DNA of 64,000 nt from NCBI GenBank assembly GCA_021845665.1, contig JAJZVO010000015.1, positions 1 through 64,000 of the forward strand. The letters are read 5' to 3'. Under the pieces are notes generated by a model that was not told the DNA's origin, did not search any database, and saw only the letters and a program-made list of their open reading frames with translations. Source of the DNA: Bacteroidota bacterium (lineage in GTDB: Bacteria > Bacteroidota > Ignavibacteria > Kryptoniales > JAKASW01). How positions within the stretch are numbered: the first letter of the stretch is position 1; each line of letters begins with the position of its first letter. The position numbers and the translations under genes are program-made. Positions 6,309 to 52,208 of the stretch are shown one piece after another.

Positions 6309-7370
6309 TTGAGGATACTCGTAATCGCGTTATCCGGGATAGGAGATGCACTTCTCTTCACTCCCGCTGCTCTTCTCCTGCGAAAGAAATTTACCGGCGC
6401 GACTATCGATTCGCTTGTAATGTTCAAAGGAGCTCAGCAGATATACGAGCGAACCGGGGTGTTCGACAACGTCCTATACCACGACTTCCTGAACCGCCCC
6501 AAACTTGAATCACTCAGCGTGGTCCTCCTCTTAAGAGGCAAGTACGATTCATCAATCAATATATATCCCTCCAACCGTAAGGAATATAACCTTATACAAT
6601 ATCTGATCGGTTCAAAGACTCGAGCCGCAATCCGGTACCTGAGGCGGGATACGATGGAGCTCGGCTTTCTGAACAACGCAAGCATCATTGAGAATGACTC
6701 GCTCCACTGCGTAGAAGAGAATGTCGCTCTCTGCGGGAAGGTTTTCGGTTTCAAGGAGGAAGAGATCCCCGATCTTCAATTCCCGCTGACCGAAGGAGAA
6801 TTGCGATTCGCGGAAGGATTCCTTGAATTGCGGAAAATCGGTGAGAGCAAGCTGGTGGTGGGCTTTCACGCGGGTACGGCTACATTCAAGAACCAGATAA
6901 AACGGAGATGGGAACCAGAGAAGTTCGCGGCACTCGCAAAAAGGCTCGCCTCCGAAAACGGCGCGGAGGTACTGGTGTTCGGAGGACCCGACGAGGCGGA
7001 ACTCAAACAGGAAATCGTCACCAGGGCTGAATCTCAAAATGTCATAGGGGTCGATACGCCGGGCCTGCCGGAGACAGCCGCGATATTGAAAAGATGCAAT
7101 CTTTTCGTGACCAACGACTCCAGCTTAATGCACATAGCTTCTGCCATGAAGAGAAAAGTGGTCGCGATCATCGGGCCGACGAATACCAATTACATTCACC
7201 CATGGCACACCGAATACGAGATAGCGTCACTGGACCTGGAATGTTCGCCTTGTTTCGTCTACTCGCCGAGACCGCTGAAGTGCTTCAGAGATGATGTGAA
7301 CTTCAAATGCATTAGGGAACTCGGCGTCGACATGGTGTACGAGAAAGCTGTCTCCCTCCTCCAGCGGTAG
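6309..7370 (+). CDS. Glycosyltransferase family 9 (heptosyltransferase-like)
   Basis: A 353-residue GT9 protein of the ADP-heptose:LPS heptosyltransferase superfamily, which adds sugars to the lipopolysaccharide core on the cytoplasmic face. The N-terminus MRILVIALSGIGDALLFTPA has the family's GxGD loop. The C-terminal nucleotide-sugar domain shows HAGTATF, FGGPDE and NDSSLMHIASA followed by AIIGPTN. The initiation codon is TTG at 6309: no in-frame ATG fits, and a nearby ATG at 6289 opens a different, very short frame. Which sugar is transferred is unknown. Confidence 0.82.
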   Translation: MRILVIALSGIGDALLFTPAALLLRKKFTGATIDSLVMFKGAQQIYERTGVFDNVLYHDFLNRPKLESLSVVLLLRGKYDSSINIYPSNRKEYNLIQYLIGSKTRAAIRYLRRDTMELGFLNNASIIENDSLHCVEENVALCGKVFGFKEEEIPDLQFPLTEGELRFAEGFLELRKIGESKLVVGFHAGTATFKNQIKRRWEPEKFAALAKRLASENGAEVLVFGGPDEAELKQEIVTRAESQNVIGVDTPGLPETAAILKRCNLFVTNDSSLMHIASAMKRKVVAIIGPTNTNYIHPWHTEYEIASLDLECSPCFVYSPRPLKCFRDDVNFKCIRELGVDMVYEKAVSLLQR

Positions 7371-7477
7371 AGCCGCTGTTGCCTCCCAACGTTTATTTCC
7401 TTTCTTCTGGATTTGACCCGATGGAATCCGCTTTCGAGTTGAGGGAAAACAATTCTCGTATTGAAACTGTCAGAGAA

Positions 7478-7505
7478 GTAGCCATCCGATGAATCGGACG
7501 GCTAC
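7478..7505. repeat. Near-perfect 28-nt palindrome (hairpin)
   Basis: The arms GTAGCCATCCGAT and ATCGGACGGCTAC pair at 12 of 13 positions with almost no loop. No T-run follows on either strand, so it is not a standard intrinsic terminator. It could be a repeat unit or a protein-binding operator. Confidence 0.6.
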
Positions 7506-7551
7506 CGACGGTGCTAGTGCCCATCCAACTATCATTTGCTAACTTGGTCCC

Positions 7552-7630
7552 GCAAAGAGCACAAAGAAAGAGCGATAAATGAATAGAGCCCTTCGTGTCC
7601 TTCGTGAAAAATCTTCGTGCTCTCGTGGTT
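7552..7630. repeat. Intergenic element with CTTCGTG/CACAAAG words
   Basis: CTTCGTGTCCTTCGTG at 7591-7606 and CTTCGTGCTCTCGTGG from 7613 form a short-period run. Upstream, AGAGCACAAAG (7556-7566) is the near-reverse complement of CTTCGTGCTCT (7613-7623), so the element can fold. From memory, such words recur in intergenic DNA of many unrelated environmental bacteria; I cannot verify that here. Confidence 0.6.
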
Positions 7631-7741
7631 GGACTTTTCGGCCGCGTCTCTATGGGACTATATCATCCGGCTGCCTCAACCCTGGGGGCGTCATCAATCC
7701 GATGATTTGATTATCTCCGGTTCGCTTTTCAAATTGAAGAC

Positions 7742-8656
7742 ATGCTACGGAAGAGTACGATTGAACGCCCGCTATTGTATTCGATAATTCTTAACGGCCT
7801 GATAGCCTTCACAGAATTGGGAGGCGGGTTGTTCTCGAACAGCCTGGCATTAATATCGGACGCTCTCCATAATTTCAGCGACTTCATCGCGCTCATTATA
7901 AGCTTCGTCGCCGTCAGGGTAATGCGATGGGACAACAACGAGAGGAAGTCATACGGCTATTTCAGGGTAGAAATACTCGCGGCGTTCATCAACGCGACCG
8001 CGCTCGTCCTGATAGGCGTGTACATCATATACGAAGCCGTATCGCGGCTCTATTCTCCCGAAGATATCCATAGCAGACTCATGATCATTATTGCGTCGAT
8101 TGGTTTTGCCGCGAATATCATCTCCGTCTTTTTGATACGTCCTCATAGAAGTGAAAGCCTCAATGCAAAGGGGGCGTTCCTGCACCTCGCTTCGGACGCT
8201 GCTAATTCGGCTGCAGTCATCGTCGTTGGCATTCTCATCTCGATATACAACCTGCGGTTCCTGGACCCGATAATCTCTATCGCAATCGGCCTTCTGATAA
8301 TAAAAAGCTCATGGGATCTCCTCATAGAGTCAGCCAACATATTGACCGAGGGCTCTCCGAAAGGCGTCGACTTAAACGACGTGGCGAATTACATACAGAC
8401 TTACCCCGGCGTGAAAGGTATCCATCACCTTCACATCTGGAGCCTCTCGACGAACTTCAAGGCGCTATCCGTACATATAGTGGTGGACGATATGCAGCTC
8501 AGCCACACTGCGGAAATCACGCAAAGCCTTGAAGGGCAACTTTCGGACAGGTTCGGCATAAATCATCCCACGTTTCAGCTCGAAGCAAGTCCCTGCGAAA
8601 ACGAACTCATCTCGCAGTACAGGGACCGCGATCTCCATACCCGAACAAGTGCATGA
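7742..8656 (+). CDS. Cation diffusion facilitator (Zn/Co/Cd efflux, CzcD-like)
   Basis: A 304-residue CDF transporter of the inner membrane that exchanges a divalent metal (usually zinc) for protons. Six transmembrane helices are evident. The metal site shows as SDALHNFSD in helix 2 and HLASDAANS in helix 5, where the HxxxD pattern is typical of zinc-preferring members. The C-terminal cytoplasmic domain contains GVKGIHHLHIWSL, the conserved dimerisation/metal-sensing strand. The start is the ATG at 7742. The last codons overlap the next gene by four bases (ATGA), implying translational coupling. Confidence 0.93.
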   Translation: MLRKSTIERPLLYSIILNGLIAFTELGGGLFSNSLALISDALHNFSDFIALIISFVAVRVMRWDNNERKSYGYFRVEILAAFINATALVLIGVYIIYEAVSRLYSPEDIHSRLMIIIASIGFAANIISVFLIRPHRSESLNAKGAFLHLASDAANSAAVIVVGILISIYNLRFLDPIISIAIGLLIIKSSWDLLIESANILTEGSPKGVDLNDVANYIQTYPGVKGIHHLHIWSLSTNFKALSVHIVVDDMQLSHTAEITQSLEGQLSDRFGINHPTFQLEASPCENELISQYRDRDLHTRTSA

Positions 8657-51685: not shown

Positions 51686-52208
51686 CTGATTGTACTCCGG
51701 AGCTGCTTGACGCGCGCTCCATTTGAGTTAAGTTCATCTGAAACACTAGAGAACGTCGGTGCGTCTTCAGAACCTGACGCACTGTAACACGATTAATTTA
51801 AAATTATCGCGGCTTTCTTCAAAGCCATAGGCCGGTAGCGGCCAATTTTGAATCCGATCTCAAAGGCCGGAAGAGGAGAGGATTTTCGACTTCCTTGCGA
51901 ATATTAGGTCGAAATAGATAGGGGAAACCAGCCGGAGGTGGGGATTGTATGCCGGTCGTGGACCCGCAATTAGGCGGCAATCAACGCGCCGTCATCGGGA
52001 CAAACCGGCGTCTGCCTGCCAGGCAGGCGCCGAACCATTTCATGGAGAGACATAGAGAAAGAAAAGAGAGAAACACGGAGAAGAGAATTCTCTCTGCGTC
52101 TCTGTGCCCCTCTCGCTCATTAAAATCACCAAAGTATGATGCGGTCACCGTGGATCGGGATTTCCCCCCTCTGCCATCCACACTTGCAGGGCCGGAGGAA
52201 TCGGTGAA
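51686..52208. other. Repeat-bearing gap between TatA genes
   Basis: No gene is recognised in these 523 bp, which interrupt an otherwise tightly packed minus-strand run. They include the palindrome and short-period repeat at 52014-52117. The gap may contain a promoter for the tatA-gatA-sucD group. Confidence 0.6.
52014..52117. repeat. Composite intergenic repeat: GCCTGCC palindrome plus CTCTGCGTCTCTGTG-type element
   Basis: GCCTGCC-A-GGCAGGC (52014-52028) is a perfect inverted repeat. From about 52047 a purine-rich stretch (GAGAGACATAGAGAAAG and similar) is answered by the pyrimidine-rich TCTCTGCGTCTCTGTGCCCC at 52091-52110, with AGAGAATTCTCT as palindromic centre. It resembles, with different words, the short-period elements at 2223 and 7552. 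Confidence 0.6.

Follow-up and report, generated by a model that had tools for sequence, protein, structure and literature searches.

The core of the repeat at 7551–7653 of the window (the whole 64,000-nucleotide stretch of DNA analysed) belongs to a repeat class that crosses phyla and also forms both arms of cassettes around GxxExxY genes. Words of this AACC-RCRRAG class bracket genes of the family (TIGR04256/PF13366), with forward words before the gene and reverse words after it. By analogy with REPIN/RAYT, the feature would be a decayed satellite of a similar hairpin-based mobile system linked to a PD-(D/E)XK nuclease, a reading to which we give a little under an even chance.

The window copy lies between two genes and is one of the partial members of its family, retaining only the right of the two outer repeats (Table 1). 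The DNA at its left junction is also found directly right of another family copy (C63). The words named by the initial annotation were all present (CTTCGTGTCCTTCGTG at 7591–7606, CTTCGTGCTCTCGTGG at 7613–7628 and, upstream, AGAGCACAAAG at 7556–7566) and lie inside the interval it gave, but that interval was too short: the remnant extends to 7653, taking in the right outer repeat. The description of the element as foldable holds for an intact sibling and not for the window copy. As single-stranded DNA, an intact copy reached −31.4 kcal/mol (z −4.68, 0 of 200 shuffles as good), with the family ends paired in the fold, whereas 7551–7653, which has lost most of its left arm and for that reason folds no better than shuffled sequence, gave a z of +0.57 (matched or beaten by 143 of 200 shuffles). 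Loss of the left half also explains why repeat finding within 7300–7900 of the window alone returned nothing. A small hairpin with CACAGAG/CGCAGAG words at 52020–52140 of the window (minus strand) falls outside this family.

Table 1. Features of the repeat remnant and its surroundings, in window positions.
Feature	Position	Strand	Evidence
Right-hand remnant of dispersed palindromic element (consensus 63–165 of 166)	7551..7653	+	98% identity, E 3.2e-44
Left-arm words left over, CGCAAAG AG CACAAAG	7551..7566	+	Sequence; intact copies have the same words
Right-arm word pair CCTTCGTGTCCTTCGTG	7590..7606	+	21 exact genome copies
Right-arm words CTTCGTGCTCTCGTGG (in many siblings CTTCGTGCTCTTTGTGG)	7613..7628	+	Sequence, siblings
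Right outer inverted repeat TTTTCGGCCGCGTCTCTAT (CTAG at sibling ends)	7635..7653	+	Genome-wide pattern count
Foreign left junction in place of the element's left ~62 bp	7514..7550		47-bp match, 91%, over 7514–7560
Upstream gene, glycosyltransferase family 9	6309..7370	+	PF01075, E 1.2e-30; start codon mechanical
Downstream gene, cation efflux family	7742..8656	+	PF01545, E 4.2e-45

Exact copies of the 17-mer CCTTCGTGTCCTTCGTG number 21 in the 4.64-Mb source genome, where about 0.0005 would be expected for a random 17-mer; allowing up to three mismatches gave 67 matches, versus 16 for the backwards pattern. Every one of the 21 falls inside one element of about 166 bp, which reads, in order, CTAGGGACGTGGCCGAAAA (variant CTAGAAGCCGGGCCGAAAA), a AACCACAAAGGTCACGAAG... 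arm, a CCTTCGTGTCCTTCGTG...CTTTGTGGTT arm and TTTTCGGCCGCGTCTCTAG. The 166-bp consensus, searched against the genome, yielded 22 near-complete and 4 partial copies that were 87–99% identical; these 26 are among 39 matches obtained with an E limit of 1. The family is palindromic, with imperfect 19-bp terminal inverted repeats around a core of inverted CACGAAG/CACAAAG word arrays. Cores of this class are inverted arrays of 7-bp words, mostly at 8–12 bp spacing and often ending AACC...GGTT.

The initial annotation had placed such words in intergenic DNA of many unrelated environmental bacteria, suggesting, if true, a widespread mobile or conserved class, and had proposed a cross-phylum search and a test for association with particular nucleases or transposases. 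Enrichment was clear: the pattern CRCRRAGGRCRCRRAG matched 635 times in 296 genomes of the phylum, versus 96 times for the reversed pattern, all matches in each genome being counted. The GxxExxY family was present in 152 of these genomes, which held 560 of the matches, with 75 in the 144 genomes without the gene (reversed pattern, 37 and 59, respectively). At least one match was found in 90/152 genomes with the gene and 45/144 without it, and all word-rich genomes (at least 10 matches) were gene carriers (15/152 versus 0/144). At two loci, L356 (genome G313) and L368 (genome G070), word matches recur locally every 100–420 bp as a clustered hairpin array.

TIGR04256 was searched for on the presumption that short words of this kind lie near GxxExxY genes, which was then tested. 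We collected 132 GxxExxY loci (30 of the best of the phylum search, 80 named loci from a genome-collection scan, 20 from the genus and 2 from the source genome itself) and analysed 119, the other 13 being partial or near a contig end; the loci came from the best-scoring GxxExxY matches and were not randomly drawn. Within 150 bp upstream of the gene there were 222 forward and 62 reverse words, and within 150 bp downstream 244 reverse and 64 forward words, while a backwards-word control gave 26 upstream and 18 downstream, both strands together. Both arms were correctly oriented in 75/119 loci, with the reverse arrangement in 15/119. Word density at 0–50 bp from the gene was 20.0 per kb (forward, upstream) and 24.7 per kb (reverse, downstream), and beyond 500 bp it was about 40-fold lower, at 0.2–0.8 per kb. 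In 27 control permease loci without a GxxExxY gene there was no peak (0.63 words per kb; reversed word, 0.61). An inverted-repeat score of at least 20 between a locus's own arms was reached in 64/119 loci; shuffles reached it in 0.7% of cases and mismatched partners in 5.5%. The association with a nuclease, for which the initial annotation had proposed a test, proved strong and specific in orientation.

In the reverse direction, among 30 loci picked by words alone (one per genome), three contained a GxxExxY gene, each beside words; many of the other 27 were gene-less hairpins, and some matches fell inside genes. Whole hairpins adjoin some GxxExxY genes. The source genome has two members: L077, whose flanking word arrays share the CACGAAG/CACAAAG class of the window family, and L076, which lies between CATGATT-type words. 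Several loci without CRCRRAG words carry other inverted arrays of short words, for example CACAGATT, TCACCGATT and CGAATT. The class is widespread, as the initial annotation had proposed: word-flanked GxxExxY genes occur in many Bacteroidota, including the isolates Mucilaginibacter psychrotolerans (L191) and Gracilimonas amylolytica (L254), in a 97-kb contig of Pyrinomonadaceae (L188, Acidobacteriota; AACCGCAAAG...CTTTGCGGTT around the gene) and in Planctomycetota (L190). They also occur in short MAG contigs labelled Treponema (L221), Spartobacteria (L239) and Rhizobium (L205), which may be mis-binned, and the Acidobacteria locus L226, like L239, has words on the upstream side only. At L343 (genome G070), a GxxExxY gene is flanked on both sides by an unrelated inverted repeat (GCTATCATT...), with no word array.

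Orthologous junctions were found both filled and empty, which together with the dispersed near-identical copies supports mobility of the class. At the first junction, compared among eight genomes of a genus, the cassette with its arms was present in G104, G146, G208 and G081; G090 had a decayed gene with the outer words retained, and in G219, G117 and G113 the site was empty, with 14–15 bp between the matched gene ends. At a permease–arsC junction, readable in 11 of 30 loci, the cassette was present in three genera (G122, G278 and G304) and absent from seven genomes, and G258 had CACAGAT-type words only. The gene itself shows a different pattern. Median identity between GxxExxY copies was 39% within one genome (63 pairs) and 40% between genomes (1,263 pairs), so copies within a genome are as diverged as those between genomes and the gene is not amplifying in the genomes compared, whereas the window's hairpin family has amplified. 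In single queries, the protein was rare on plasmids (6 of 72,556 records) and absent from 50,697 phage records.

The GxxExxY protein is a small predicted PD-(D/E)XK nuclease resembling Cas4 and lambda exonuclease in its modelled structure. Both source-genome members score above the TIGR04256 cut-off, and L077, L076 and L125 match PF13366, of PD-(D/E)XK fold, over its curated cut-off. A structure predicted for the L188 protein, aligned with 37 others, had a pLDDT of 96.1. Foldseek returned no match to this model at E 0.001 or better, its best being Cas4 (4r5q, E 1.4e-3) and lambda exonuclease. A second structural comparison gave Cas4 SSO0001 (Z 10.3, rmsd 3.1 over 99 residues) and ranked Holliday-junction resolvases and restriction enzymes lower. 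Sequence comparison found no solved relative for L077. No link of GxxExxY/PF13366 to repeats was found in the literature searched, which lacked most subscription journals; where the family is named, it appears once in a gene table and once in a list of expanded families.

Protein and words vary together. Across loci with CRCRRAG words, protein similarity tracked word similarity (Spearman 0.21, reached in 0 of 500 permutations), and nearest protein neighbours of less than 80% identity shared a word class in 94/100 loci (maximum of 1,000 null sets, 91); 100 of 148 loci were used and 48 left out, and these statistics ignore host relationship. As a comparison of sequences in which host relationship is still included, this coupling favours a putative recognition of the words by the protein.

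The repeat family, the architecture of the cassettes, the co-occurrence of words and gene, and the filled and empty sites are direct observations. We infer the action of the nuclease on hairpins, and every enzymatic step that follows, by analogy with REPIN/RAYT, in which gene-less palindromic dimers are dispersed, the enzyme gene is flanked by repeats in inverted orientation, repeats are commoner in genomes with the gene, and hairpins amplify while the gene does not (PMC8049555, PMC3733652). The GxxExxY protein would recognise the word hairpin, as a cruciform or a single-stranded snap-back, and cut at its foot, so that hairpins would be copied or moved into gaps between genes. Its gene would sit between two arms as a cassette that rarely copies itself, and gene-less hairpins would relate to it as satellites, in the way that REPINs do to RAYT transposases. 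In the source genus, word cores would in addition travel inside the outer inverted repeat.

Like the REPIN/RAYT arrangement (REPtron), the system described here has an enzyme gene between inverted repeats and dispersed gene-less dimers; it also resembles that arrangement in having more repeats where the gene is present and hairpins that amplify without the gene, and the hairpin system may work in the same way. Unlike RAYT, which is a Y1 tyrosine transposase, the flanked gene studied here belongs to the PD-(D/E)XK superfamily (PF13366), and word arrays take the place of short stems. We saw no GTAG or CGTC tag of the REP/RAYT kind, the outermost words being preceded mostly by AAC (65 arms), TTA (17) or TAC (12). 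Lacking both the tag and a Y1 transposase as the flanked gene, the system was not filed under REP/RAYT. More tentatively, and well short of an even chance, we propose that hairpins of inverted short-word arrays, mobilised by a stand-alone GxxExxY protein, may form a new type of mobile DNA without its own transposase, integrase or reverse transcriptase. Its range would cover several phyla, and many intergenic repeats of the CACAGAG/CGCAAAG/CACGAAG type in environmental genomes would belong to it.

Several observations count against the nuclease reading. Direct repeats between the two flanks were also raised (score of at least 20 in 30/119 loci), and genomes without the gene can contain pattern matches, as noted above. 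Neither target duplications nor exact empty sites were recovered, and the window family yielded no empty site. In L077 an asparagine replaces the nearly invariant lysine of ExK, while L076 retains ELK. Several word classes surround the GxxExxY genes of a single genome, and in six genomes the dispersed words matched the gene-flanking words of their own genome weakly (0.63, versus 0.47 for other genomes). The window family's outer repeat was found on both sides of a GxxExxY gene in 0 of 21 genus loci.

Because of its outer repeat, the window family could still be served by an ordinary transposase. We consider it unlikely, but deserving of weight, that the family is an ordinary MITE, moved by a DDE transposase through the outer repeat CTAGRGACGYGGCCGAAAA, with the word core as a passive hairpin spacer. 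As in MITEs with TA or CTAG ends, the elements are short (166 bp) and without an open reading frame, with inverted terminal repeats and many near-identical copies. The outer repeats lie at constant places, with CTAG at the left end of 18 of 21 copies, the right end of 17 and both ends of 15, though CTAG could belong to the repeat itself. Allowing three mismatches at most, the right outer repeat TTTTCGGCCGCGTCTCTAT had 49 matches in the genome, versus 5 for the reversed pattern. Matches to the 166-bp consensus (E up to 0.001) occurred in 10 of 61 genomes searched, the source genome included. Among 13 genomes of the genus, 7 carry the outer repeat, which there encloses quite different core words (CACAGAG, CACCAAG, CACAGAT and others) and, at L091 and L098, cores with no words of the CRCRRAG kind; the repeat and the core it encloses are thus separable parts. 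Left and right halves of 23 outer-repeat elements gave 13.8 for own and 10.3 for mismatched pairs, a comparison to which we give no weight because related subfamilies raised the 95th percentile of mismatched pairs to 21. Counting against a MITE, no gene bounded by CTAGRGACGYGGCCGAAAA and no cognate transposase was recognised at five loci where the outer repeat is unpaired, in draft genomes with reading frames judged by eye. In addition, and unlike in MITEs, the core words recur in arrays without the outer repeat around GxxExxY genes, in the same genus and elsewhere.

Rather improbable, in our assessment, is a scheme in which some other process spreads the hairpins and GxxExxY inserts into existing hairpin loops as a passenger or homing gene. 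It would accommodate the unrelated word classes around GxxExxY genes, even within one genome, and the resemblance of the predicted fold to junction- and end-processing nucleases. It would also fit the presence, in two contigs, of group II introns whose ends abut the right outer repeat, as these introns also use hairpin sites. Yet word class follows protein relationship, and empty sites at the two junctions lacked a left-over hairpin in 3/3 and 7/8 genomes. The intron 3′ ends (RF00029, 54 bits) lie directly before the right outer repeat at L058:10–99 and L059:9–98, where contigs C76 and C22 of the source genome begin, so intron insertion has taken place within or alongside such elements.

We give little credence to a non-mobile RNA or DNA structure, in which the hairpins would be terminators or mRNA stabilisers arisen by local duplication: they are intergenic and fold strongly, and GxxExxY genes are co-directional with the upstream neighbour in 93/115 and the downstream neighbour in 90/113 cases (raw counts with no baseline), but transitions between arms had no strand bias (169 of the wobble versus 188 of the A.C kind, p 0.34), a result unfavourable to selection for a hairpin in the mRNA, Rfam gave 0 matches in 7300–7800 of the window at E up to 1 and none to the intact copy L031 at gathering score, and near-identical copies are dispersed and vary in presence at orthologous sites.

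The link between words and gene joins common, unexplained intergenic short-word repeats with a widespread nuclease family for which we found no assigned role. Should the nuclease move or edit hairpins, it would mobilise DNA without belonging to the DDE, HUH, tyrosine, serine or reverse-transcriptase enzymes; even mere homing into hairpins would provide a concrete candidate substrate for GxxExxY proteins. Other lone nucleases may keep company with such hairpin elements, as does a GIY-YIG nuclease gene (PF01541, E 1.8e-17) beside an outer-repeat element with CTCTGTG words in genome G004 (L073:1057–1413). In the same genome, at L071:1010–1695, an IS200-like (Y1) transposase gene is apparently split by an outer-repeat element; the Pfam match of the gene, at 16.7 bits, is below the cut-off of 23.
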